From IMG/VR virus record IMGVR_UViG_3300037261_000140, positions 1 to 44,948 of that record: a DNA stretch of 44,948 bases. One strand, written 5' to 3'. The notes below the pieces were generated by a model, which ran no database searches, was not told where the DNA came from, and saw only the letters and a program-made list of their open reading frames with translations. The position numbers were made by a program, and so were the translations under genes. This document shows, piece by piece, positions 5,538 through 42,347 of this stretch; position 1 is the first letter of the stretch; every line of letters starts with the position of its first letter. The stretch comes from a virus.

Positions 5538-5548
5538 CTAAAGATTAC
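5538..5548 (-). promoter_or_regulatory. AATCTT box before tail tube gene
   Basis: Minus strand reads GTAATCTTTAG, overlapping the sheath stop codon and ending 18 bases before the tube ATG at 5520; AAAGGAG follows as ribosome site. Same motif as before the fibre, DUF3494, portal-side and endolysin units. Confidence 0.5.
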
Positions 5549-8304
5549 GCGGCTGACTGAACCTGGGATACGTTAATACTGATCGGGATGAAATAGATGG
5601 CAGTAGCCAGCTTGATTTCAACCGCAACAGCCATTTCAGGCCCATTGATGGTGACCTTTTGGTTTTTATAACCAAGAGGAGCATCGGAACTGCCGGCGAT
5701 TAACTTCAACCGTTTGTAGCCGTCCATTTTTTGAGCCAAGAAGCTCAAAGCGGTAGCTGCATCGACATCGGCCAAACTCTTACCAACGAACGTGCTTTGG
5801 AAGCTCGCGGCCAGGTCGAGGGCCAAGATATCGGAACAGTAAACTGCTTGGATGCTGTTATAAACGAAGTTGGTATCAACTCCGTAGGTTGTTTGGTCAC
5901 TGACCCAACGATTGCCGGCTGTATCCTGTGTTAGGAACAGAAGACCTGCGCTGAGTGCATCTTCAACATCGCCGGGGCTGCCGGAATCAAATCCAGTAGG
6001 ATCGGTGAAGCTGATGACGTTTGCATATTTGTTGACGATGGCTTTATAGAATCCACCGGCTTGCATTCCAGCGGCCACACAAGCGGCGTACCAAGGCATG
6101 AAACTGGTAATAACCCCTTTGGAGTTAACCTGAGTCGGCCTTTGCATGGTAAGCGAGCAACGGTAGTTCGCGAGACTTTGAGCCTGCGCTTTAGCATTCG
6201 CATAACTTCCCCAGAAGGAAAGAATACAAATGCGATTCTTTTTGAGTTTTGGTGTGCTAAACTCGATACAATGCGATTTCGTCGCAGCATTGATCGCGGC
6301 GATTGTATAGGTCGAACTTGCATCGGTAAGCCCGGCGATGATATCAGCCGAAGCATCTTCTGAGAAAAGAGGAACGATGATGTTGACATCAATCGTAGCC
6401 AATAACTCGATAGCTTGGATGATTGTCGCAGCAGTAGTTCCACCTCTGGCGCCGCCAGCAAGAAACGCTGGGTTTACCATAGGATTGGGCAATCCGGCTG
6501 TAGCTATCATATTGAATTGCACTTTAGTCGCAACAGCAACATCTTGAGCGAATTCATAAGCTGCATCTTTGATTCTTCCAGGTTGACCAGCGGCCACAGT
6601 AGAAGCGATACCAACGGCGGCAACAGCGTCCAAAGCAGAAGGAGGTAACTGACTAGCTGAAGAATCAGCTGAAGCAGAATATCCCGTTTGAGAATTTAAG
6701 AATGCGGCTAAATCTCCGATTGTGGAATACTGAGCGAGATTAACGCTTAAGTTAGCGCCTGATCCGCCAGTAACGGCTGTGGTCAACAAGTTAGTTGTTT
6801 TGTTGATGGTAACCGTTCCAGAAGTACCTTGATAACCAAGATAAAGGGCAAAGGTTGTTGGAACGTCGATTGTTTGGCTGTAGCCAATATCGGTTCTGTT
6901 GATTTGAACTTCAACTTCGGCTTCTTGAGAAGCGACGTTGATACCGGGAGCTAAACCTAAAGCGGCCAGATCTCCGGGGGTAGAATCGATCAATTCAAAA
7001 CTTCTTCCCCAGCCACTTCTATAAGGAGCAGGGTTAGCGGCCATGGTCAATTGTACAGAGTTCGGAGCGGCACCGGCTGAAGCCACAAGGCCAGCAGGAA
7101 GTACGGCGTTAAGCTCGACAATTAATTCGGCGATATTCCCGTGGGCTGGCGTATTGATTATGCCAGGAGGGAAACCTGTGATAGTATTTGTCGGAGAAGA
7201 ACCTACGTCTCCGCTGATAACAGAGAAACCAGTGTTGGTTACAGCTGAAGCGCCCAAGAGAGCGAAATTTCCGGCTGATGCCAATAATGGAGCTTGTTGA
7301 GCATTCACGATAGTCGCAGCACTTAAGGAGATAGCTCCAGATAGAGCGATTAAGCTACCGTTGACAGTTCCACCAGAAGTATCCGTGATCGAGGTTTGAG
7401 CGATGACGTTACCATTGAAGGTACCGATAAATGCAGAGTTGAGGGTAGCAGAGCTACCAACGATGAAGTACACGTTTTTAGCAAGTGCTCCACCAGTTAA
7501 ATTGATGACTGGAATTCCAGTTGAACCAGTAACGAGGGTACTTGCAGTTTTGATAACGAATACATCGGTAGCCGTACCGTTAAAGGTAAGTGCTCCGCCG
7601 GCATCTAAAGTAGCCGCGCCAGTATTGTAATAACCGGCAGATAATGTTTGTCCATCGAGAACAGCAGGGATCGCGACATAACCGCCGTGACCAGCCAAAG
7701 ATGTATAGGCCGCCAAAGCATCAGCTTGAGCCGTTGCAGCAGAAAGACCGCCGCTGGATGAACTAAGGGTGACCACAGTAGCAGGTCCGCCATTCAATCG
7801 AACAGAAAAAGTATCTCCGTTTAAGGCAGCGCCGAAAGCGGTGATAGTATTACCAGCAAAAGAAGGAGGAGTTTCAGTTTCTAAAGAGGTGACTTGATAA
7901 CGGTAGAGATTTCCGTTTGTTCCGAAGTTGTTATCAAGAATTGTTGCATAGTCGGTGTCAACAAGGGCCGAAGCTTGAGAACTGGAGTTTGTTTTTACGA
8001 TGTAAATTTTGTTGGCCGAGCCGACGATATCTGCATCGCCTGACGGAGCAGAGAAAGCCGCGAAGGCATCAACAATGGGTCCTGAAACATATTGTTGCAT
8101 GACCTTATCGAGTTGATCGGGCGTAAAGGAGTTATTTTTCAACTGAAACGAGGGATCAGTGAAAACATCTCCGCCATCGGCTTCACCAAAGATAACTACG
8201 TTACCAGACGAACCAAGTCCAACTGGCTGGCTTTGAACCGTAATTTCCGGGTATGCGCCGGGAATATTAGTATTTAAAAAACTTGTTACTTCTCTTTGAG
8301 ACAT
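5545..8304 (-). CDS. tail sheath protein with inserted, permuted DUF3494-like domain
   Basis: 919 aa. The N terminus (NIPGAYPEITVQSQPVG, then GNVVIFGEADGGDVF) and the long C-terminal part (ATIIQAIELLATIDVNIIVPLF, ANYRCSLTMQRPT, VYCSDILALDLAASFQSTFVGK, KLATAIYFIPISINVS) match the contractile-tail sheath plan: an N-terminal exchange arm, variable domains and a conserved C-terminal core. Residues about 181-386 (7764-7147) are not sheath-like. They contain the DUF3494 ice-binding-protein signature in swapped order: DALAAYTSLA, LDGQTLSAGYY, INLTGGALAKNVYFIVG, FNGNVIAQTSI and SLIALSGAISL come first, followed by NFALLGASAV, VISGDVGSSP and NTITGF. The insertion splits another sheath domain (RLNGGPATVVTL before, NIAELIVELNAVLPAG after). 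At 919 aa it is larger than many sheaths. The domain should be displayed on the outer tail surface. The tube gene follows, and a 107-aa gene precedes it. Confidence 0.9.
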   Translation of the reverse strand: MSQREVTSFLNTNIPGAYPEITVQSQPVGLGSSGNVVIFGEADGGDVFTDPSFQLKNNSFTPDQLDKVMQQYVSGPIVDAFAAFSAPSGDADIVGSANKIYIVKTNSSSQASALVDTDYATILDNNFGTNGNLYRYQVTSLETETPPSFAGNTITAFGAALNGDTFSVRLNGGPATVVTLSSSSGGLSAATAQADALAAYTSLAGHGGYVAIPAVLDGQTLSAGYYNTGAATLDAGGALTFNGTATDVFVIKTASTLVTGSTGIPVINLTGGALAKNVYFIVGSSATLNSAFIGTFNGNVIAQTSITDTSGGTVNGSLIALSGAISLSAATIVNAQQAPLLASAGNFALLGASAVTNTGFSVISGDVGSSPTNTITGFPPGIINTPAHGNIAELIVELNAVLPAGLVASAGAAPNSVQLTMAANPAPYRSGWGRSFELIDSTPGDLAALGLAPGINVASQEAEVEVQINRTDIGYSQTIDVPTTFALYLGYQGTSGTVTINKTTNLLTTAVTGGSGANLSVNLAQYSTIGDLAAFLNSQTGYSASADSSASQLPPSALDAVAAVGIASTVAAGQPGRIKDAAYEFAQDVAVATKVQFNMIATAGLPNPMVNPAFLAGGARGGTTAATIIQAIELLATIDVNIIVPLFSEDASADIIAGLTDASSTYTIAAINAATKSHCIEFSTPKLKKNRICILSFWGSYANAKAQAQSLANYRCSLTMQRPTQVNSKGVITSFMPWYAACVAAGMQAGGFYKAIVNKYANVISFTDPTGFDSGSPGDVEDALSAGLLFLTQDTAGNRWVSDQTTYGVDTNFVYNSIQAVYCSDILALDLAASFQSTFVGKSLADVDAATALSFLAQKMDGYKRLKLIAGSSDAPLGYKNQKVTINGPEMAVAVEIKLATAIYFIPISINVSQVQSAA

Positions 8305-8644: not shown

Positions 8645-10150
8645 TTAACTCTTTTTCAATCGTTTATTGGCTTTGTCTTCCATAAACTTAGCAAGTTTGG
8701 CCGATCCAATACTTTTCCCAGCCGGCATTTCTGACTTGGTTACTGCCGAACTTGTTTTTGGCGCCTGAGCGTCCTTACCAGTATCAAGAGCTTTCTTTAA
8801 ATTAGCCGAATGATACTCAACTTTCCACATTCCAGATTCAGATTTTATTACCTGACCTTCCTCTGATTTTGCGGCAGGAGCAGGTGAGGGAGAAGGAGCA
8901 GGTGAGCTAACGCTTCTTGCACCTTGTTGTATTTTAGCGGGAGTGATCGAACCACTGGCCGCAGCATTCGCAAAATTTTGTCCAAAATCTTTCTTCAGCG
9001 ATTCAGACTTACCAAAAGCACCGCTAATCCCAGCTTGAACCCCTTGAGGAGTTGCTGTTTGGGTATGGGGTACTCCGCCTGCGGCACCTGCCGCTGCGAT
9101 CCCGGCTTGTATTCCGCCGTCTTTTTTAAGTTCTTCGCCTTCATGTTGATATGTGTCAGAACCATGAACGATTTCGTGACCGTTCAAATTCTTGATTCCG
9201 ATATTATGGGCATGTTCCTTAAATTGATTAGGAGATGCCTCATGTGTTTTGTATCCATGTTGTTTCATACTATGATGAACTTTGTCGATTAAATGTTGTC
9301 TAACCGACATTCCAAATTTATCGTTGCTGCTTTTTTTCTCTTCTGCTTTATCTACACCATCTTCACTTTTCGGAAGATTGGGTTTAGGCATATCTTTGAG
9401 TTCTGATAATTTATCGCTATGTAAAGACTTAGCATCTGACATCACAGAATCTTTACTTGATTTCATATCCGAGCCATATTTATTGGCATTTCTAACTCGA
9501 TTGCCCGCGCTAGATCCTTCTGTAGTTTCCATTCCGCTATGTTTGAATGGGCTTTTCTCATGGACACCCTTTTCATCTTTTTCTAAATTGGCTGAATGAT
9601 ACTCAACTTTGTGCATTCCAGCTTCAGTTTTTCTGACTTGGCCTTCCATACCGTATTTCTTGACGTTATAGGGCTGAGCGCCGGGAGCCGCATTGTTACC
9701 TTCAGCGTTCTCTTTCGGGTTCTTGTCGGGATCTTCTTGATGTCTAACTCGCCTTTTTCCCACGATGTCTTCTTTATCGACTTCTTCTTGGTGTCTGTGG
9801 GGAGCTTGCGTACCTAACTTCTTAGAGTTCTCAGATTCGTATTTATCCATGCCTTCTTCCGATTTGGGAAGGTTGGGCTTGGGCATTTCTCTTGAAGATG
9901 CCAACACGTCTCGGTGAAGATCTCTTGCTTTCGATTCATATGTTTCTTTTGCCTGGGGATGTTCACTAGGAGCATGATGAGCTTCTCGTGCCATTATTCC
10001 GGCACGCGACATACCTGGATGCCTATTAATTTCTTTATGAACGCCCTTTTCAGCCTTTTCTAAAACTTCAGACTTCCCAATCAATTCCTGTACTTTAGCA
10101 AGAATTGCTTCGGCTACCTGTCTTGGAGTTACTTGTTCATCGCGTGCCAT
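8645..10150 (-). CDS. repeat-rich hydrophilic late protein with KSE motifs
   Basis: 501 aa, very rich in Lys, Glu, Ser, His and Gly; most of it is probably disordered. It contains repeated modules: MPKPNLPKSE twice (coding positions 9857-9886 and 9362-9391), VEYHSANL twice, and several copies of a (K/E)GVH or SGM(H/W)K phrase. KSE occurs seven times. A central piece (residues about 285-345, HLIDKVHHSMKQHGYKTHEASPNQFKEHAHNIGIKN) may be a small folded domain. The same MPKPNLPKSE peptide occurs near the C terminus of the prohead protease at 28561-28590. No enzyme motif is seen. Its place among neck and tail genes suggests a virion or assembly protein, possibly processed by the phage protease (inference). 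The gene has an AATCTT-like box upstream. Confidence 0.6.
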   Translation of the reverse strand: MARDEQVTPRQVAEAILAKVQELIGKSEVLEKAEKGVHKEINRHPGMSRAGIMAREAHHAPSEHPQAKETYESKARDLHRDVLASSREMPKPNLPKSEEGMDKYESENSKKLGTQAPHRHQEEVDKEDIVGKRRVRHQEDPDKNPKENAEGNNAAPGAQPYNVKKYGMEGQVRKTEAGMHKVEYHSANLEKDEKGVHEKSPFKHSGMETTEGSSAGNRVRNANKYGSDMKSSKDSVMSDAKSLHSDKLSELKDMPKPNLPKSEDGVDKAEEKKSSNDKFGMSVRQHLIDKVHHSMKQHGYKTHEASPNQFKEHAHNIGIKNLNGHEIVHGSDTYQHEGEELKKDGGIQAGIAAAGAAGGVPHTQTATPQGVQAGISGAFGKSESLKKDFGQNFANAAASGSITPAKIQQGARSVSSPAPSPSPAPAAKSEEGQVIKSESGMWKVEYHSANLKKALDTGKDAQAPKTSSAVTKSEMPAGKSIGSAKLAKFMEDKANKRLKKS

Positions 10151-10551: not shown

Positions 10552-11562
10552 TTACTCATCATCCTCCGTGTCATCATCAATGGCCGTGGTCCACGATTCA
10601 TTGGTCTTATCGATAAAAGCTGGGGAATTCTCATTAGATATGATAGTTAGGCCGCCCTGAAAACCAGTCTTATTTTTCTCTTTTAAGACGATACTTTCGA
10701 TGTATCGGCGCGGAGTTTTTATCCAAGTATTTTCGACCTGGCCGGTGATCGTGATGACTCGTTTGTAAACTTCTTCCCCGGACACTCCGCCATAATTTCC
10801 ATCTTCCATGACATCTGAGTTTGAGATGATACTTTGGCCAAAACCACTAAATTCGAGTAGGCTTTCTCTATAACGCATGATGCTATAAAGTGCGATGGAC
10901 CAAAGCCAAAGAAGATTTTGGGGATCTCCGTGGGCGTGGCAGACAATATTGTAGGTTTCTTGGAAAAAGCTATGTTCGACCCTGGCTTTATATATTTGAT
11001 GTTGCGGGAGAATTCCGAATTTTCCGGCATTTAATTCTAGGCCGGCCTCAAGCATAATTCCCGTGGAAGTGACTTCTAGGATTCCATATCCATTCCCGGT
11101 AGCCGGGTCCACCAAGATCATTCCCACGGCGATGCCGTCGGTCCCCTTGATACAGTCCGGGATTACCATTTCGCCGGTCGATTGGTCATAAGACTCGGGA
11201 ACGAAAGGTTTAACAATATAAGGAATGGGCTTCCCAATGGTATTGGGCATCAAAAGGACGGTCTCGGTACTTTGGTCGGCCATGGACTTCATGTCTTCTT
11301 TTTCAGGACTTGGACCCATGGAAATTGTGATACAGGGCGTCTTATCTTTGTCGGCCCGGAGAGCCATATAGAATTCGATCTTGTTATTGGTAATCCATTC
11401 CTTACAGGCCTCTATTTGACCGCTGTATTTTTCTTTCAAATACTCATTTGTGGTCAGATCTTCAAACATGTGGTCAATAAGCCATAAATTCTTGCGCATA
11501 TCTTCAATGCCAAGTTCAATAGCCGTTTTGATTATAATGTCACCTTGAAATATGCCGCCCAT
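10552..11562 (-). CDS. putative neck / tail-terminator-type virion protein
   Basis: 336 aa, mixed alpha/beta, with no signal peptide or membrane segment. Recognisable segments are IIIKTAIELGIEDMRKNLWLIDHMFED at the N terminus, QIYKARVEHSFFQETYNIVCHAHGDPQNLLWLWSIALYSIMRYRE in the middle and VYKRVITITGQVENTWI near the C terminus, with an acidic tail (DDDTEDDE). The combination of a helical N terminus, a middle part with strand-helix pattern and a late strand resembles phage neck or tail-completion proteins. It directly follows the HK97-gp10-like gene with a one-base gap, the usual order connector, gp10, terminator, sheath. I cannot assign it to a named family; the neck/terminator role is inferred from gene order. 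Confidence 0.5.
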   Translation of the reverse strand: MGGIFQGDIIIKTAIELGIEDMRKNLWLIDHMFEDLTTNEYLKEKYSGQIEACKEWITNNKIEFYMALRADKDKTPCITISMGPSPEKEDMKSMADQSTETVLLMPNTIGKPIPYIVKPFVPESYDQSTGEMVIPDCIKGTDGIAVGMILVDPATGNGYGILEVTSTGIMLEAGLELNAGKFGILPQHQIYKARVEHSFFQETYNIVCHAHGDPQNLLWLWSIALYSIMRYRESLLEFSGFGQSIISNSDVMEDGNYGGVSGEEVYKRVITITGQVENTWIKTPRRYIESIVLKEKNKTGFQGGLTIISNENSPAFIDKTNESWTTAIDDDTEDDE

Positions 11563-11563
11563 A

Positions 11564-12355
11564 TTAGCCGCCGTACTTTGCTAAGATTTGTGGAAGGACA
11601 TTTGTTTCCCATTCATTCAAGGCCCATTGATATGCTGCTTCAAAGAAATTCTGAGCTTTATAGCCTGGATGAATAAATTTTCCTTCACTGGCACCGCTGT
11701 CGGTCACAGTGCGGAATGTCATAATTTCTCTTTTTACTGATGTTTTTCCAGTCGCCTTATCTTGTACTTCTCTTTGATAGACGCTGACTCGGGCTAATGC
11801 AGGAGTGTTGGCTTTTGATTTTAAAGAACGGCCAACAAAGCTACTTTTATCTGGAATGCTGAATTCATGAAGTTTTCCAAGCCGAGGATTGCCGCCCTTT
11901 TTCTGAATTGTACTCCAAGGAATTTTTCTTGCGGCCATCTCTGATCTAATTTGGCTGACCAAACTTTGAGCATAGGCATTATTTTTGCTAGGAGATTTTT
12001 CATGATGGAAAGGAACAGCAAGACTTTTATGGCCAGTACGAGGATTTACTGTGGCCTTACTACTTTTTAAAATATCATCTTTCATGTCTCTGGGGCCGGC
12101 GCCGTCTTCAATCCAAAGAGCACTTTCGTCAATTGTGAATAGGTGAACGTGTGGGGCAATTTCTGCAACGTGAAAAGCTTTTTCAAATATTTCTCGGCTA
12201 TGATCTAGTTTTTCTTCTGCCATTTCTGTGATTCGGGCATGGGTCATCGTAGCAAGAGCATCTACTCCATTTAGAATGTCTTGAGTGATCTCTTCTTTGG
12301 CTTCTCGAAAAGCATCGGCAATAGAATTTACGTCAATCTCTAGCTTAATACCCAT
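11564..12355 (-). CDS. HK97 gp10-like neck/tail-completion protein
   Basis: 263 aa. The N-terminal half is helical (NSIADAFREAKEEITQDILNGVDALATMTHARITEMAEEKLDHSREIF). The C terminus carries the characteristic phrase of HK97-gp10-like proteins: a serine/glycine strand (MTFRTVTDSGASEGKFIHPGYKAQNFFEAAYQWA) in which IHPG-x-K-A-x-x-FF precedes the last helix. Such proteins sit at the head-tail joint and help terminate or stopper the tail. The start ATG at 12355 overlaps the last base of the upstream mCpol-like gene, suggesting coupled translation, and the next structural gene begins one base after its stop codon. Confidence 0.7.
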   Translation of the reverse strand: MGIKLEIDVNSIADAFREAKEEITQDILNGVDALATMTHARITEMAEEKLDHSREIFEKAFHVAEIAPHVHLFTIDESALWIEDGAGPRDMKDDILKSSKATVNPRTGHKSLAVPFHHEKSPSKNNAYAQSLVSQIRSEMAARKIPWSTIQKKGGNPRLGKLHEFSIPDKSSFVGRSLKSKANTPALARVSVYQREVQDKATGKTSVKREIMTFRTVTDSGASEGKFIHPGYKAQNFFEAAYQWALNEWETNVLPQILAKYGG

Positions 12356-14532
12356 TATTTTTTATTCTCTTTAGAACCCTCTTTTACTGGAACTCCAGAT
12401 GGACCCATGACGACGCCTTTTTTGCGGTCGATCCAACGAGTCTTGCCGGTAACTTTGTCTGTAGTTTTTTGTTGACCTTTAAGGTTGATAGAACCTTCTT
12501 GCAAAGGAGTACGGGCCACATGTTTAGTGGTCGCACTGGTAGGCAATTTACCCGCGCCGCTACCGGCACCGGGTTTACTTCCTTTTGGGGGCTCGTTAGC
12601 TGCACCCTCCTTGGGGGCAGCCGATTTGTCGTCTTTTTTAGGGGGGAATCCACCTTTACCTTCGGTCTTCTCTTTACCTTCAGGTTTTTCCTTTTCGCCC
12701 GGTTTGGCGTCTTTCCCATCCTTTTTTGGCGGAAAGCCACCTTCTTTCCCATCCTTTTCTGGCGGGAAACCACCTTCACCAGCTTGTTGTTCTTGTCCAG
12801 GCTGTTCCTGACCGCCCTTACCACAAGTAGGACACGGTTGTTCTTGGCCTTGTTCTTGACCAGGAATTTCTTCAGAACCATCGCTGAGACCTAACATTTT
12901 AGCCATTTCAATCATGGCCAAAAGCATTGACACGCAGGAGGTGTAAAGTTCTGGAGCTTGAGCAGAAGCTTGTTCCAGAGCTTGTTTGTTATTTTTAAAA
13001 CCTTCAAGAGCTTGGCCAATCATTTGTTTGACCTTTTCTTCTTGCTCTTGATCTTGGCCGGCATCGAGGCCATCTTGCATGACGCCTTCAATTTCTTCTG
13101 CGCCTGGCTCACCAGCTTGCTGTTCTTGAGCTTGCTGTTGTTGCATGGCAGCGTCATTTTCTTGGTCGGCAGGGGATTGTCCGCCTAAACCATTATCCTG
13201 AGTGTCTTCGGGATTGCCATTTTCAACAGTAACTCCGCCTTCAGGTCCGCCATCCATTCCAACATCGCCTGGAACATTTTGTTCTTTGAAACCATCAGGA
13301 CGACTGACGTTTCCTTCCATCTCGGTACTTACAGGCATTTGAGTGTTGTCAACGGCATTCAACTGTTGTTGTTGAGTTGCCGCATCAGCAGGAGGATTAT
13401 CTACTGCCTCTTGAACGACTTCACTAGCCTGCGCTTTTGCTTGGCCGCATGACGGGCACACTTCGCTATGCTCTTCTTGGCCTTGCGGTGCAGCCTCTTT
13501 ACCTTGCGGTGGAGCTTCTTTAGGAGCTTCTTTACCTTTTTCATTTTTCACATCCTTTTCAGGTTTCTTTTCAGTTGCCATATCCACACTTTCTTGAGGC
13601 TCACCTTTTTTAACAGGAGCCTTAAATTCATCTTTCGAGGGATCATTACCAGTAGCTTCAGCCTTCTCCCGAGGAGTAGACATTTCTTTACCAATCACAT
13701 GTTTATTGGCTTGACCAATTTCTTCTTCTTGCTGTTTACTGACCGTTTTATCGGGCAGTTGTCTTTCTTCAGCCTTTGCATCTCCGGGCCGGGCATCAAC
13801 TTTACCTTCTACCGCTTTGCTGGCGGCTTCTTGGGTTGTTTTTGCCGATGCTTCTTGAGGAGATTCTGTAGTAACTGCGCCAGCTTGCGCATTTTCATCG
13901 GGGTTTTCTGCCGATGTTTTGGCCGATGTTGTGGCGGATTGTTCACTGGCTTCCCGTTCCTGTTTTTGTTCAGGGGACTCAGTAGCTAACTGAGCAGGAG
14001 GCTGGCCAGTTTTTTCCTTCTTAATTTGATCTGTCTGCCAAGAGTCTTGTTGAAACTGTTGGTCTTCTTTTCCTGGGCTTAAATATGCTTCTCCAAGCTT
14101 TTGTTCTTCTTCAGAACCCTGACCTTGTGCTACCCTATCTTGAGTGGCTTGGATATCGGATTCAACTGTTTGGTCATACATGACCACTTGATTTTTACCG
14201 CGAAACTTCGCGACCATGAGAGACTTGCCGGCCTGTGAAAGATTTTGGCCTACTCCAACCGACATTGTAAGGTTGGTAGAAAATTCATAGTCTCTGCGCA
14301 GTTCTTCAATATTTTCAACTGCTTCAGCGGGAAGAGAGAAACAGCCTTCGTCTCCGCCGCCACTTATAACTTGTCCATTATGTTCTTGGACCCATTTTTT
14401 AACAACTTCGTGTCCAAGATTTATTCTGGCAGATATTTCACTGAGCGCACCTGCGTCATCCGCAAGTATCGCACGGCCAACAAGCCGTCCGGCGTTGTCG
14501 CCGTCATATGCCAGAAAGATTTGGTTATTCAC
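12355..14532 (-). CDS. Cas10/mCpol-GGDEF-like nucleotidyl cyclase domain with long disordered tail
   Basis: 725 aa from a GTG start (14532), with AAGGA six bases upstream. Residues about 1-122 form a palm-type polymerase/cyclase domain: FLAYDGDNAG (D10, D12) resembles the first metal site of Cas10 and mCpol proteins; GGGDEG at 58-63 matches the GGD(D/E) turn; TMSVGVG and KFRGKNQVVMYD match the end of GGDEF-type folds. The expected reaction is NTP to a cyclic (oligo)nucleotide, not proven. Residues about 123-650 are low complexity (Gln, Glu, Pro, Lys, Gly), with two CPxCG knuckles (CPSCGQ near 365, CPTCGK near 590) and GGFPPKKDGK repeats. The basic C terminus (GKTRWIDRKKGVVMGPSGVPVK) may be a separate small module. 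It sits in the late operon between a zinc-ribbon gene (8-base overlap) and the gp10-like gene, so the enzyme may be virion-associated. A degenerate, non-catalytic palm is the alternative. Confidence 0.7.
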   Translation of the reverse strand: MNNQIFLAYDGDNAGRLVGRAILADDAGALSEISARINLGHEVVKKWVQEHNGQVISGGGDEGCFSLPAEAVENIEELRRDYEFSTNLTMSVGVGQNLSQAGKSLMVAKFRGKNQVVMYDQTVESDIQATQDRVAQGQGSEEEQKLGEAYLSPGKEDQQFQQDSWQTDQIKKEKTGQPPAQLATESPEQKQEREASEQSATTSAKTSAENPDENAQAGAVTTESPQEASAKTTQEAASKAVEGKVDARPGDAKAEERQLPDKTVSKQQEEEIGQANKHVIGKEMSTPREKAEATGNDPSKDEFKAPVKKGEPQESVDMATEKKPEKDVKNEKGKEAPKEAPPQGKEAAPQGQEEHSEVCPSCGQAKAQASEVVQEAVDNPPADAATQQQQLNAVDNTQMPVSTEMEGNVSRPDGFKEQNVPGDVGMDGGPEGGVTVENGNPEDTQDNGLGGQSPADQENDAAMQQQQAQEQQAGEPGAEEIEGVMQDGLDAGQDQEQEEKVKQMIGQALEGFKNNKQALEQASAQAPELYTSCVSMLLAMIEMAKMLGLSDGSEEIPGQEQGQEQPCPTCGKGGQEQPGQEQQAGEGGFPPEKDGKEGGFPPKKDGKDAKPGEKEKPEGKEKTEGKGGFPPKKDDKSAAPKEGAANEPPKGSKPGAGSGAGKLPTSATTKHVARTPLQEGSINLKGQQKTTDKVTGKTRWIDRKKGVVMGPSGVPVKEGSKENKK

Positions 14533-14818
14533 GTTTTTTCCTTAAAGTTTCCAGGAGCATTTCAATGTTTTCTGCATCCCAGCCTTTACCGAATCGAACC
14601 TTTATTCCCTGTTCGGTCTTTTTAATGAAGACTTTTCTTTCTCGATCCTCACCAAGACAAACGCAGCCGGAAAAAACAGATCCATCAAAAATGTGTTTAC
14701 CACAATCTGGGCATTCAACAGTTTCGCCTTTAGCCATTTCAATTGAAAATTCATTTTTCTTTCCTTTATTCTTTCTGGATTCAATAAACTCTTTTAATTT
14801 TGATGCACCGGAGGCCAT
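14525..14818 (-). CDS. small zinc-ribbon protein upstream of the cyclase-like gene
   Basis: 97 aa. A CPDC knuckle at residues about 36-39 and CVC about 13 residues later (HIFDGSVFSGCVCLG) could bind one zinc. The N terminus is basic and helical (SKLKEFIESRKNKGKKNEF), and the C terminus has helix ENIEMLLETLRKKRE. The gene overlaps the GTG start of the mCpol-like gene by eight bases, so the two are probably translated together and may act together. No named family recognised. Confidence 0.6.
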   Translation of the reverse strand: MASGASKLKEFIESRKNKGKKNEFSIEMAKGETVECPDCGKHIFDGSVFSGCVCLGEDRERKVFIKKTEQGIKVRFGKGWDAENIEMLLETLRKKRE

Positions 14819-22544: not shown

Positions 22545-23513
22545 TTATGCTTCGGTGATACCACTGATTAATGTAATTGCGGTCTGAGCATATAGAGCAC
22601 CATGAACCGTAGTAGTAGCTTGAGTTGCAATTGAAGTTGCAGCCAAGATAACGCCTCTAAATGTTGAAGCTGTTTTCAAAGTTACTGCGCCGGTAATGGC
22701 CCAGAAAACATTTTGCGGCAAAATTCCACCAGTTAAATTTACTGCGATTCCAGCTTCTAAATTAAGAGTTCCAGAAATCTGCATAACGATTGAATCTAAT
22801 GGTCCGCCATGAATTGTGATGGGGCCAGTGATATCAACAGGGGTAGACCATTTGTAAATTCCAGGAACAAGCGTTTGGCCGTTAAGAGTTCCGCCGCCTA
22901 ATCCAACGACTGGGGCCGGGACAACTAACCCTTGAGCAAAAGTGTATGCCGCTTGCATGTCAGTGATTGCCTGGGTCAAATTAGCGGGAGTCGGGGCTGC
23001 GTTGTCAGGAGAATCTACGTTTCCAGAAACTTCAGCAGCACTACCATGGGCTCCACCGAGGTTCGGAGTATAAGTAAATCCAGTGATTGCGGTATGTGAA
23101 ATTGGACTTACTGCGATATTTCCCGTAACTGTGGCACCAGAGGCATTACTGATTCCTGCTTCTGATAAAATTCGATAGTTTCCAGCAGTGAGTAAAGGAA
23201 CAATGCCAGGGCCGTGAGCAGAATTGATTGCGCAATAGGCTCCAATGTTGTTCACGATATCCATTGCATATGGTTTGCTTGCAAACCCATCGACCATTAC
23301 GGCGATGTCATGCGGAGTAAGAAGTTTTTGACAAAGGATAGCTGCCTGAATGTTTAAGGCAACTTGTTTATCGCCCATTGCATCGATCAGTCTCGCCATG
23401 GTATTTTTGGAAAGAACAGATCCGTTTTGAACTGCAAGTGCGAATTCTTTACCGGCAGGTTTGCTTGCCAGGGCGTCTATAATATCCAAAACTGTGTCAT
23501 TCATTAGGGTCAT
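22545..23513 (-). CDS. virion-type protein with C-terminal DUF3494 ice-binding-like domain
   Basis: 322 aa. Residues about 1-100 form a helical phage-specific N-terminal domain (DIIDALASKPAGKEFALAVQNG; note the repeated phrase ASKP at 16 and 78). Residues about 103-322 match DUF3494, the bacterial and fungal ice-binding beta-solenoid: LLTAGNYRILSEAGISN, VTGNIAVSP, AITGF, an alpha-helix phrase (LTQAITDMQAAYTFA), LGGGTLNGQTLVPGIYKWST, VNLTGGILPQNVFWAITGAVTL, ASTFRGVILAATSIA and ALYAQTAITLISG. The order is canonical and near full length. No signal peptide is present. It follows the capsid and zinc-ribbon genes and has its own AATCTT box, so it is probably a late virion protein, for example a head fibre. 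Ice binding is only one possible role; DUF3494 proteins also act as adhesins. Confidence 0.85.
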   Translation of the reverse strand: MTLMNDTVLDIIDALASKPAGKEFALAVQNGSVLSKNTMARLIDAMGDKQVALNIQAAILCQKLLTPHDIAVMVDGFASKPYAMDIVNNIGAYCAINSAHGPGIVPLLTAGNYRILSEAGISNASGATVTGNIAVSPISHTAITGFTYTPNLGGAHGSAAEVSGNVDSPDNAAPTPANLTQAITDMQAAYTFAQGLVVPAPVVGLGGGTLNGQTLVPGIYKWSTPVDITGPITIHGGPLDSIVMQISGTLNLEAGIAVNLTGGILPQNVFWAITGAVTLKTASTFRGVILAATSIATQATTTVHGALYAQTAITLISGITEA

Positions 23514-23994: not shown

Positions 23995-25395
23995 TTATGA
24001 ACCGCCGGGGGTTAATTGACCCGTGATGTTCTCAAGGAGTACGTTCTTACGAGGTTGGAAAACAGCGAGAGACAAGAATCTGAAATGTGCTTCGGGGAGC
24101 GACAAGTCATTGATTGCGAGTTTCAATTTGCTGTAGGGAGCTAATTGAGCGATGCTCATGGTGTTCCCTTGAACCAAGAATCCAGTTACAGATCCACCTT
24201 GACGATTTCCGAGATCGGAGAACACTGGGTTACCGATGCTTTGAGAAATCTTACCGATGAATTTGGCTGAAGCAGCAGACCCGTTGGCATCACTACGATA
24301 CACGTTGTAATACTGGGCACCGGCTACGGCGGTAATGGTTACGGTAACCTTGTCACCGGCAGCAGCGACCACTTGGGAAGCTGAAGCAGAAGGGAGCGAC
24401 TCACCACGCATACTGACGGCAGTAACGTAGTAGAAATATGTCGCAGCCTGGAGCAGCGAACCAGCTGCACCTGCATCGGCAAGAGCGGGAGCAGCGGCTT
24501 GGGCCGGGCTACCTGAACGAGCGCGAGCGGGACGAGTTTTACCAGAGAGGAAACGAGACGCTTCGAGAGAAACGATTGCACTTGAGGTCCATTGGGTTCT
24601 CAAATGAGCGCCAGTGGCTTCTTGAGGAGAGCCGGCGAGCATAATACGTTCTTTCGCATGCGCGATTTTGTTGTATTGAGAGAGGGTGATGGGATCGAGA
24701 ACGAGTCTGTCAGCCGCACCCATGTTCATTGCTGAACGAACCGAACTGTCTTCGATGATGGACTGTGCTAACGCACCGCCAACAGAAAGAATAACAGTTT
24801 GATCTGAGCCGTACTCAGCAAACATCAAATCTTGAGTGTTTGATTGAGCGTCGGATTGACGAACTTGTTGATCGAGGCCGATCATGTTGGGGACTTTGGC
24901 TACCGCGAGAGGGTTACCATCAAATACTCCAGCATTGGAGAAATCGGATTGACCACGGAAAAGGTCAAATTCAATATCCCCCGCGAGTTTCATCGCAGCG
25001 TCAGCAGAGGCTCTGTCTTCGGCTTTAACACCGTCGAAAGCACCAATCATGTTCGCAGCAACAGTGACTCGACGAGTCGTGCTGTAATATGACATCGGGA
25101 CCACGGCACGAACATAGTTCGTTGTGTCTTCTTCACCGATTCCACCTTCAAATTGGGCAGAACCTCCGAAGATACCATAGTCAAGTTGACGGTTGAACTG
25201 ATGGAGTTGAGACTTAACGTCTTTACTCGGCAGCATCTTTTGCAACTTGATATGACTGTCGTCAAATGTAACATTATGCATCACTGGCGATAGATCTTCT
25301 ACCATTAGCGCGGCACCTTGGGCAAGCTGACCAGGAGCGGCATTGTAACTGCCTGCTTCTAGGGCTTTCATGAGAGACTGAAGTTGTTCAATCAT
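23995..25395 (-). CDS. major capsid protein, HK97 fold with Ig-like insertion
   Basis: 466 aa, coded directly after the scaffold-like gene and before a strong terminator. The N-terminal part (DLSPVMHNVTFDDSHIKLQKMLPSKDVKSQLHQFNRQLDYGIFGG) and the part that follows (FEGGIGEEDTTNYVRAVVPMSYYSTTRRVTVAANMIG, then DIEFDLFRGQSDFSN and DPITLSQYNKIAHA) have the order of the N-arm, E-loop and P-domain of large-phage HK97-fold capsid proteins. Residues about 300-405 (TYFYYVTAVSMRGESLPSA, VTVTITAVAGAQYYNVYRSDANG) form an Ig/FN3-like domain inserted before the last A-domain strands, as in SPO1/Twort-type capsids, and would stick out from the capsomer. The C terminus (RFLSLAVFQPRKNVLLENITG) returns to the core. 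It assembles the prohead shell. Confidence 0.9.
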   Translation of the reverse strand: MIEQLQSLMKALEAGSYNAAPGQLAQGAALMVEDLSPVMHNVTFDDSHIKLQKMLPSKDVKSQLHQFNRQLDYGIFGGSAQFEGGIGEEDTTNYVRAVVPMSYYSTTRRVTVAANMIGAFDGVKAEDRASADAAMKLAGDIEFDLFRGQSDFSNAGVFDGNPLAVAKVPNMIGLDQQVRQSDAQSNTQDLMFAEYGSDQTVILSVGGALAQSIIEDSSVRSAMNMGAADRLVLDPITLSQYNKIAHAKERIMLAGSPQEATGAHLRTQWTSSAIVSLEASRFLSGKTRPARARSGSPAQAAAPALADAGAAGSLLQAATYFYYVTAVSMRGESLPSASASQVVAAAGDKVTVTITAVAGAQYYNVYRSDANGSAASAKFIGKISQSIGNPVFSDLGNRQGGSVTGFLVQGNTMSIAQLAPYSKLKLAINDLSLPEAHFRFLSLAVFQPRKNVLLENITGQLTPGGS

Positions 25396-25421: not shown

Positions 25422-26294
25422 TTATTTAAGTAGGTGGCTAATAGTTTCAAATCCGGCTTTATTCAAATAAAATTCGTTGATCGCATCTCTGTCAGATTTA
25501 GCCAGAGTAGGATCGGATGCTTTTTTGTTCAAAACTTGAGTAATCTCGCTCTTCGTGAGTTCAACTGTTTCGCTGTGTCCGCCTTCACCTTTGGCCAACA
25601 CTTCGATTTGCGTAATGGCTTTCTGGGGAGGAGGAGTCGTTTTCTCGACAAATTTGGTCAAGAAAGCAGAGACCGCGTTGAGTTGATTTTTACTGTCTTC
25701 GTTTTCCTTTTTAAGGGCTTCGATTTCAGACTTCAAAAGATCGGCTTCACTCTTGTTCATTTTCTCTCCATTAGCAGCTGAATCAGCTGATTTTGCGCCC
25801 GGCGAATTGCTCGGAGGGCATTTCTCAATTTCTGCCTTATTAAGGACAGGTTGAGGGGTTTCAGACGCTTCTGATTTTTTCCCTTCACTATTATGAGGGG
25901 CACTCGCCTCGATTTTGCCAGTTTCGGTTTTATTCAAAACAGGTTGGGGAGTTTCAGACGCTTCAGATTTGGGACCAGGAGAACCCTTTGGAGGATTCGC
26001 ACTCATTTCCCCACCATTTCCATCGGCTTTCGCGAGATTGCCGTCTTCCATGGCTTTAGCGATTGAGGCTTGATGGAAAGCTAATTCACCCTTAGACATA
26101 GACTTGTACATCTTATGGGCAGCGGCTTTATCATCTTCGTCGTAATCGCAATCTTCTTTCTTTTCAATCACAGCAGTTGGCTCAGATTTATTGAAAGAAG
26201 CAACAGATTCAGCTTCAGCTTTTTTGAGTTCGGCTGAAAACTGTTTCTCGATTTGACTTACGAGACCTACTAATTGCTCTTTTGTGTATGCCAT
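25422..26294 (-). CDS. capsid scaffold-like protein with KSE repeats
   Basis: 290 aa just upstream of the capsid gene, the usual place for the scaffold. It is charged and largely helical or disordered: an N-terminal helix (YTKEQLVGLVSQIEKQFSAELKKAEAESVASF), an acidic Lys/Glu region, a coiled coil at about 180-215 (KMNKSEADLLKSEIEALKKENEDSKNQLNAVSAFLTKFVEK) and a C-terminal helical tail (INEFYLNKAGFETISHLLK) that could bind capsid protein. The segment KSEASETPQPVLNK occurs twice (coding 25837-25877 and 25930-25970). There are six KSE tripeptides. Scaffolds are usually cut out by the prohead protease, so these may be processing sites (inference). Confidence in the scaffold role rests on position and composition. 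Confidence 0.75.
   Translation of the reverse strand: MAYTKEQLVGLVSQIEKQFSAELKKAEAESVASFNKSEPTAVIEKKEDCDYDEDDKAAAHKMYKSMSKGELAFHQASIAKAMEDGNLAKADGNGGEMSANPPKGSPGPKSEASETPQPVLNKTETGKIEASAPHNSEGKKSEASETPQPVLNKAEIEKCPPSNSPGAKSADSAANGEKMNKSEADLLKSEIEALKKENEDSKNQLNAVSAFLTKFVEKTTPPPQKAITQIEVLAKGEGGHSETVELTKSEITQVLNKKASDPTLAKSDRDAINEFYLNKAGFETISHLLK
25837..25971 (-). repeat. direct repeat inside the scaffold gene
   Basis: Two copies of a roughly 42-base coding unit, at about 25837-25877 and 25930-25970, encode the same 14 residues (KSEASETPQPVLNK). They differ at several synonymous positions, so the duplication is not recent or the protein sequence is under selection. Confidence 0.7.
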
Positions 26295-40574: not shown

Positions 40575-42347
40575 TTATGGTCTTTCGTTTGCTTCGTTAA
40601 CGTATTGATCGGCCTGTGAAGTCGCCCGGCCAAATTCAGCGTCGGCCTTAGCTTCAGACCGTTCAAACATATCATCTCGGGGGTGACAGACGATTCCGCC
40701 GCACGTTCCCAGTATGGTCGCAATGCTTACTGCGTTACTTAAAGATTCCTCCACAGCCTTCGTCGCGTCAAATAGGCCTAATGACTCAGCTTTTCCGTAC
40801 TGCTGATTTTCGATGTCATAAACCAGATGGGGGTTATCTATCAGTTTTCTAAGGACTTCTTGGGCCTGTTCGGGGTTGTAACCGGCGTTATCCAGAAGCT
40901 TATTCGGCAACGCAAGGAGGGACGGCATGAGGACTTCCCTGGCCGGATCTCCGGCCTGAAGCTCAGTCGCCAGCTTAAGGAACATGTCGAGGGCGATACG
41001 GCATCCGCCGGGCAATGCACCGTGTTTGATTGCACTCCGAACGGCGCATACAGCGTCTTCGCATCTATCGTGAGCTTCTTTGAGTTCGCCATTTGATCCC
41101 CCAAAAATGGTCAGTTTTGCAATACCATTGGTTATTTTGCCAAGACGTTCTTCTAACCACATCTTATCGGCATCACTTTCTGCGCCGGCTATCATGGTTT
41201 TTAGTTCATCGGCCCTGATTTCAACAAGTGTCGGATCAGGATTACCAATGACCGTGGAACGAAATCGGTAACATTCAAAAGATTCTGGGCCAACTCCAAG
41301 ATCGCCCATTGTTGCATTTTGGACTGGATCTTTCATGCTGAATACTTTGGCCCCAGTGAAGGCAGCCAAGTCGTGCAAGAAATGGAGTTGACTATTGGTG
41401 AACTGATGCATTGGCGTAACCAGAGGAACAATGTTCATAGTTGTTGGATTATTCATGTTAAACGCCAACTGCGTCAGGACCGACTCACTAAAACCGTGAG
41501 CCACGACAACAATGTTTTTGAAGTCACTGTTGCCTTCTTCTACATACTTTCTACCGATGCCATCGAATAGACCTTGAAAACTTATGAGGTCATTAACCAT
41601 GCCATCATAAAGGATGTACAAAGGTTTTTCTAAATAACAGCGTTGATTACCTTGGTCATTAATGAAGGCCGTATGGAATTTTCCGATACTCTCTTCGTAG
41701 CCCATGGGAATAGGGAATCCATCGATCCGTTCGACCTTGTATCCGGACTTTCCGGATAGTTCGCGAATGGTAACGTGAGAAGAGTCACCGTATCCGACTT
41801 CTTCAAAGGCTTTGATAACGGCATCGGCCATATCGGTGTCACCATTGGCACTGATAGTAGCTACCATCTTGAGCATGCCTTGATTCTCAATTCCAACTGC
41901 GATACTGCGAGATTGGATGTAGGGAATCAAGATCTCTCTGGTGACCTTGTTAATTCTTCGTGCGGCCTTCTGTGGGCTATATTGTGGATTTTCTTTGCAA
42001 AAATCAAATAGGTTGGAAATAATGTTGTAGGATAAAATAGTTGCGGTGGTCGTACCGTCGCCGGCCTCTGAAGCAGTTCTTTTGGCCGCATCACGGGCTT
42101 GCTCGGTAATCAAGTGTTCATATGGATCGATTGCGCCAAGACTATCGAAAACGGTAACACCGTCTTTGGTATTTTTGTTTCCGATACCATTGAAATCACT
42201 CTCGATTAGAATGTTAAAACCGCCGGGGCCAAGTGTTCGACCGACCGCTTCAGAAACTCGATGCATTGTATCGAGAATTTTCTTCTGCAATTGTTTTTTA
42301 TCGATCATGTAAATCTTGGGGGAAGTTTTCGCTTTTCTATAAGACAT
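40575..42347 (-). CDS. groEL-like: GroEL-like chaperonin
   Basis: 590 aa, group I/phage chaperonin. Motifs: SEAVGRTLGPGGFNILIE (nucleotide-binding loop, residues 33-50), KDGVTVFDSLGAIDPYEHLITEQARDAAKRT, GDGTTTATIL (96-105; catalytic Asp region), and a C-terminal equatorial part with GALPGGCRIALDMFLKLA and IVCHPRDDM. The apical part (residues about 190-370) is divergent from host GroEL. No GroES gene is visible here and the C terminus lacks the GGM tail. Giant phages such as EL and OBP encode similar single-ring or double-ring chaperonins that fold phage proteins without GroES. AGGAGG and a TGATATAAG -10 signal lie upstream, divergent to the helicase. The symbol is descriptive only. Confidence 0.85.
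   Translation of the reverse strand: MSYRKAKTSPKIYMIDKKQLQKKILDTMHRVSEAVGRTLGPGGFNILIESDFNGIGNKNTKDGVTVFDSLGAIDPYEHLITEQARDAAKRTASEAGDGTTTATILSYNIISNLFDFCKENPQYSPQKAARRINKVTREILIPYIQSRSIAVGIENQGMLKMVATISANGDTDMADAVIKAFEEVGYGDSSHVTIRELSGKSGYKVERIDGFPIPMGYEESIGKFHTAFINDQGNQRCYLEKPLYILYDGMVNDLISFQGLFDGIGRKYVEEGNSDFKNIVVVAHGFSESVLTQLAFNMNNPTTMNIVPLVTPMHQFTNSQLHFLHDLAAFTGAKVFSMKDPVQNATMGDLGVGPESFECYRFRSTVIGNPDPTLVEIRADELKTMIAGAESDADKMWLEERLGKITNGIAKLTIFGGSNGELKEAHDRCEDAVCAVRSAIKHGALPGGCRIALDMFLKLATELQAGDPAREVLMPSLLALPNKLLDNAGYNPEQAQEVLRKLIDNPHLVYDIENQQYGKAESLGLFDATKAVEESLSNAVSIATILGTCGGIVCHPRDDMFERSEAKADAEFGRATSQADQYVNEANERP

Follow-up and report, generated by a model that had tools for sequence, protein, structure and literature searches.

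The described system closest to the gene reported here is Panoptes, a bacterial anti-phage system whose OptS/mCpol palm (PF18182) has been solved (PDB 9mnr, 9pd0, and 9nwn). In Panoptes, optS adjoins the gene of a 2TM-beta effector, optE, and a constitutively made signal holds that toxic effector in check. Two papers from 2025 identified Asp6 and Asp57 of KpOptS as catalytic and S30 and N34 as base-selective (PMC12657218, PMC12657230), and the mCpol mining in the second drew on AFDB and the NCBI nr of 2018. In phages and mobile elements, polyvalent proteins, packaged and injected together with the DNA, carry GGDEF or RelA/SpoT domains, and Iyer et al. (2017) proposed that their GGDEF cyclases disturb host nucleotide signals (PMC5512222). 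Here we describe a 725-residue phage protein with an mCpol palm, encoded in a 44,948-base virus record that is probably a fragment and that we refer to, at its full length, as the window. Our searches of the open literature turned up no account of a phage mCpol, though one may exist in a preprint or behind a subscription.

The window palm has its fold, Asp pair, selectivity residues, and domain length in common with OptS and differs in being phage-borne, fused to a long tail, and placed among virion genes. No Cap15_CD_rec effector was found in 16 related records, in a search run without a positive control, and none was recognized near the window gene. Because no effector gene was found and the adjoining genes are virion genes, the palm gene is not a Panoptes system. 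The polyvalent proteins likewise place a nucleotide-messenger synthase on a late, possibly packaged protein, with the same proposed purpose, whereas the window protein has mCpol rather than GGDEF and is conserved across a whole phage group. Polyvalent proteins hold several enzyme domains; the palm is the sole domain that Pfam and NCBIfam recognized in the window protein. This comparison narrows the suggestion, made in the initial annotation, of a new phage strategy: the purpose had already been proposed for GGDEF cyclases (PMC5512222), and the novelty lies in the use of an mCpol-type domain, in the constancy of its place, and in its group-wide spread.

The initial annotation had also read the motifs as a palm pattern of the Cas10, mCpol, and GGDEF kind, of which the mCpol branch held up. 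GGDEF diguanylate cyclases have the palm fold, two-metal cyclase chemistry, and DxD and GGDE motifs in common with the window palm, but PF00990 gave no hmmscan match to the 725-residue protein. The relation to the Cas10 palm of type III CRISPR is mainly at the level of fold. Cas10-Cmr2_palm2 matched weakly (26.5 bits for the whole protein and 30.8 for the domain alone, with a cut-off of 27), and the window protein has a single, much smaller palm of ∼122 residues, with no HD domain or second palm recognized, against the two palms, HD domain, and Csm/Cmr partners of the type III systems. Among the scanned neighbors, Pfam and NCBIfam detected no CRISPR families.

Sequence and predicted fold of the palm domain

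The palm gene occupies 12355..14532 on the minus strand and has syntenic orthologs in 59 phages. It starts with GTG at 14532, 3′ of a Shine-Dalgarno-like AGGA. From the N to the C terminus, the protein consists of the mCpol palm, a long low-complexity tail containing two CPxCG knuckles (CPSCG and CPTCG), a conserved helical segment, and a short C-terminal tail. The palm, residues 1-122 (14167..14532, minus strand), is defined by Pfam, AlphaFold2, Foldseek, and column conservation. It holds the motifs DGDNAG (D10-G15), GGGDEG (G58-G63), SVGVG (91-95), and KFRGKNQ (109-115), and with them the metal residues D10, D12, and D61 (codons 14503-14505, 14497-14499, and 14350-14352, minus strand), the selectivity residues S34 and N38, and the lysines K109 and K113. 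Upon rereading the sequence, we found the ORF, strand, motifs, and knuckles as first annotated.

PF18182 matched residues 6-119 of the full-length protein in hmmscan (E 1.4e-14, 54.9 bits, against a curated cut-off of 26.4 bits), and the isolated domain scored 59.7 bits. The NCBIfam mCpol model NF033576 gave 39.8 bits against a cut-off of 40. When PDB sequences were searched, the only convincing relatives were the mCpol chains 9nwn and 9mnr/9pd0 (E 3e-8). The designed repeat protein 8fjf (E 6e-4) was rejected, as no matched stretch was significant alone. Identity to OptS/mCpol is only ∼26%; D6, S30, N34, and D57 of the solved mCpols align to D10, S34, N38, and D61 of the window palm with no gap in between. 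Selection measured against the nearest relative is strongly purifying (pN 0.09, pS 0.79).

The initial annotation had claimed a palm nucleotidyl cyclase fold and named the failure to predict one as an outcome that would refute it. From an alignment of 44 domains from the window and IMG/VR, AlphaFold2 returned a confident palm (mean pLDDT 96.7, pTM 0.88). Its top six PDB matches in Foldseek were Panoptes OptS/mCpol structures (TM 0.78-0.82 by query and 0.84-0.89 by target), followed by GGDEF domains at TM of about 0.6-0.7. The best viral match, in BFVD, was an uncharacterized protein of an uncultured Caudovirales phage (TM 0.89 by query). The domain at residues 1-122 belongs to the mCpol family.

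Genomic setting and distribution

The palm gene lies in a late operon, as first proposed. Upstream are the genes for the major capsid protein (23995..25395, minus strand; PHROG 752, E 5e-42), which defines the late-gene context, the portal, and the terminase. Downstream is the tail sheath gene (5545..8304, minus strand), which served as a marker of the phage group; its product is 43% identical, over the aligned parts, to its counterpart in Myxococcus phage Mx1, which is annotated as sheath. The gene immediately upstream (14525..14818, minus strand) overlaps the palm gene, start codon included, by 8 nt and encodes 97 residues with a zinc-ribbon-like C terminus. It is a shortened form of a 320-residue zinc-ribbon-like gene of the relative L001 from which the middle ∼220 residues are absent, through either a biological deletion or an assembly artefact. 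Two conserved neighbors follow the palm gene: a 263-residue gene (11564..12355, minus strand; PHROG 16819), for which a role in tail completion is a guess from position, and a 336-residue late gene (10552..11562, minus strand).

Further features of the window were observed in passing. Within the tail sheath, residues of about 149-332 resemble an ice-binding protein (NCBIfam NF045625, E 4e-14, short of the curated cut-off of 400 bits), and another late gene (22545-23513, minus strand; E 2e-45) consists largely of such a domain; by sequence, L001 appears to share these domains. A GroEL-type chaperonin is encoded at 40575-42347 (minus strand; PHROG 5725, E 1.6e-82) and is annotated in Mx1 too.

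Our protein search returned one cultured relative of the palm protein, from Mx1 (WNM70340.1), and a 171-kb IMG/VR phage at 86% identity. Relatives were fetched mainly via the tail sheath and the 336-residue gene, avoiding bias toward palm carriers. The Mx1-like version of the latter was added later as a query, and a few entries came from palm-based scans. The palm was present at the equivalent locus in 56 of the 59 phages of a mostly uncultured myovirus group of ∼165-175 kb that includes Mx1, and PF18182 matched every aligned domain (45/45). At nearly all loci reaching far enough, the gene is on the same strand as the sheath and just before the 263-residue gene. In the main branch it lies 4-6 kb upstream of the sheath; in the Mx1-like branch the distance is greater. 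Of the 13 records that are 149 kb or longer, 11 hold the palm in this slot, exactly one copy each, bearing in mind that IMG/VR records may be incomplete. Two more copies come from phage contigs that had been assigned to a deltaproteobacterial MAG from a bog; together with Mx1, these contigs hint at the host group. When cellular mCpols were sought in 58 genomes of one host-side phylum, only those two phage contigs matched. A single copy located on a plasmid came from Sulfitobacter.

Conservation, decay, and loss of the palm

Most members share just 33-60% identity with the window palm. Across 48 palms, D12, G93, and G95 are nonetheless invariant, D61, K109, and K113 are retained in 45, and S34 in 43; among the 56 palm-bearing relatives, D61 is retained in 52. 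Where it could be estimated, for four pairs, palm dN/dS was low (0.04, 0.07, 0.21, and 0.39). The metal residues, whose lack of conservation in homologues was the other refuting outcome named in the initial annotation, are kept in most of them.

We mapped the state of the palm onto a phage tree built from three neighboring genes of the 59 phages (quick-mode IQ-TREE with SH-aLRT support). The palm is intact in 41 phages, carries D10N in seven, has a changed K113 in four, is degenerate in four, and is absent from three. D10N forms one clade, in which D12, D61, and K113 are retained, the degenerate palms, from which most catalytic residues have gone, represent about four changes, and absence represents two independent losses. 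Since intact palms are present on either side of the deepest split, an intact palm is probably the ancestral state on this phage-only tree. Degenerate palms are retained in Mx1, L115, L117, and L175. For instance, the Mx1 ortholog, likewise upstream of the sheath, has lost D10, D61, and K113 and is predicted to be inactive.

The complete palm-less orthologs (L011, L023, and L086) retain the tail, the CxxC knuckles, and the conserved helical segment. This segment, KVKQMIGQALEGFKNNK...LYTSCVSMLLAMIEMAKMLGL, spans residues of about 495-550 (12880..13050, minus strand) and is carried by all 83 of 83 palm ORFs, as well as in Mx1. Because palm-less orthologs keep both tail and helix, the palm is separable from the role of the tail; the tail is the constant part of the gene and the palm the accessory part. 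Repeated loss or degradation of the palm, with the remainder of the gene left in place, suggests an accessory enzyme module rather than an essential structural domain.

One apparent exchange of palms has a simpler explanation. The palm of L096 is unlike that of L097, although the two are otherwise siblings at ∼97% identity, the N-terminal part of the palm having been exchanged. An HNH-like endonuclease gene, labeled by sequence motif rather than by profile, lies exactly before the mCpol gene of L096 (302-1228). We therefore rejected domain swapping in an arms race, since an endonuclease at the join points to homing with co-conversion as the explanation for the difference.

A second cyclase and other nucleotide-related genes

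The 'nucleotide cyclase' encoded between the prohead protease and capsid genes of Mx1 is a GGDEF protein (L123 17173-17904). Seven records, all from the Mx1-like branch, gave GGDEF matches (Mx1 and the phages of L115, L119, L164, L166, L171, and L177), and none of 11 large records outside that branch did, including the 171-kb relative. In the four proteins read, from Mx1, L115, L119, and L177, the metal and GGD(E) motifs are retained. The head-operon GGDEF genes of the Mx1-like phages lie at L123, L127, L128, and L190-L193, the one at L190 on a long fused ORF. The degenerations and K113 changes of mCpol are confined to the same branch, as would fit a shared cyclase function on which selection has relaxed where a second cyclase is present; a single clade amounts to one event, and we treat this as a lead only. 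Replacement of dead mCpol by GGDEF phage by phage was rejected because GGDEF coexists with intact mCpol in L119 and L177, leaving the link at the level of the clade.

Acb2-type sponges occur in two of 16 related phages, which indicates that the group encounters cyclic-nucleotide immunity. No linkage between Acb2 and the palm could be drawn, as one of the two carriers is palm-less and the other intact. Mx1 also encodes a nicotinamide phosphoribosyltransferase and a nicotinamide-nucleotide adenylyltransferase as a gene pair (L124 4120-4674 and 6022-7422). The pair resembles the NAD-restoring counter-defense of phages (PMC7824862).

Proposed function and alternative explanations

We propose, with about even confidence, that the palm is a working cyclic-dinucleotide synthase on a late, possibly virion-associated protein and is aimed at host nucleotide signaling. 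Two palms would pair as in OptS, and two ATP molecules would meet at a composite active site with metals on D10 and D61. There they would be joined into a cyclic dinucleotide, most simply of the c-di-AMP type in the window phage, since S34 and N38 correspond to the KpOptS residues. Through the tail and conserved helix, the enzyme would be tethered to the particle under assembly or to its cargo. The product would then disturb or replace a host cyclic-dinucleotide signal, most plausibly one of anti-phage immunity, and the palm would be dropped where the accessory function does not pay. Immunity is favored as the target because mCpol products, Acb2 sponges, and phage NAD-restoring genes all belong to that conflict; it is the weakest step of the mechanism.

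Some points weigh against this proposal. A late gene acts late for counter-defense unless its product is packaged, and in one clade D10N alters a residue that KpOptS requires. Because of that clade, and because four lineages keep a degenerate palm instead of deleting it, part of the value of the palm may be noncatalytic. As a possible sign of packaging we considered K[STAG]E, possibly a prohead-protease cleavage motif. It is strongly enriched in a likely scaffold protein of 290 residues whose gene precedes the capsid gene (25422-26294, minus strand; 11 against 1.6 expected) and in a 501-residue late protein (8645-10150, minus strand; 10 against 1.9). In the palm protein it is not enriched (four seen, 2.6 expected), and we discarded it as a packaging signal there.

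Unlikely but tenable is that the palm is a nucleotide-binding structural or assembly module of a neck or head protein, serving dimerization or NTP sensing, its conserved acidic residues binding metal and nucleotide with no signal released. Such a module would agree with the fixed place among head and neck genes in the phages examined, with a domain that outlasts its catalytic residues in Mx1 and the three other degenerate lineages, and with the residues still kept in the D10N clade. However, complete palm-less orthologs in two independent lineages imply that assembly does not need the palm, and conservation at the catalytic positions ranks with the highest in the alignment, beyond the needs of pure scaffolding.

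We consider it distinctly unlikely that the phage makes a second messenger for physiology, altering motility, development, or lysis timing controlled by host c-di-GMP, cGAMP, or c-di-AMP late in infection. S34 and N38 point to a dinucleotide made from ATP in the window phage, and we know of no host development run by such a molecule; nor was a receptor or effector recognized nearby. Known GGDEF members normally make c-di-GMP, and the GGDEF genes that adjoin the capsid gene in Mx1-like phages, the late-gene position, and a sole cultured host genus, Myxococcus, that is a social bacterium speak for this role.

Defense carried by the virus itself, with Panoptes or a related mCpol used against competing phages, is highly improbable even though the domain family is that of OptS. 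The Cap15_CD_rec search, which had no positive control, returned nothing in the 16 records, the gene is fixed among virion genes group-wide, and Mx1-like phages are virulent (PMC6070905), making defense by a resident element unlikely. Chance resemblance or a mis-called ORF, to which the low-complexity tail and GTG start might point, has a negligible probability given the Pfam E-value, the mCpol matches of all 45 aligned relatives, the confident fold, and the strong purifying selection, and is already refuted by conservation.

Returning to the proposed synthase, an active site kept in most members suggests that these phages make or mimic an immune-type signal. More speculatively, and in our estimate improbably, a virion-delivered mCpol could supply the nucleotide that restrains Panoptes-like guard effectors or could flood the immune nucleotide pool. 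If true, immunity would be defused by making signal, opposite in sign to Acb sponges and phosphodiesterases, and this would offer a testable way around Panoptes, a system vulnerable exactly where the nucleotide that restrains its effector is supplied. The spectrum present in nature (intact, D10N, degenerate, and palm-less) forms a ready series for mapping the function of the enzyme. To our knowledge, the strategies by which phages counter cyclic-nucleotide immunity either destroy the signal or sequester it; a phage gene that is widespread and seemingly built to make such a signal would invert that logic.
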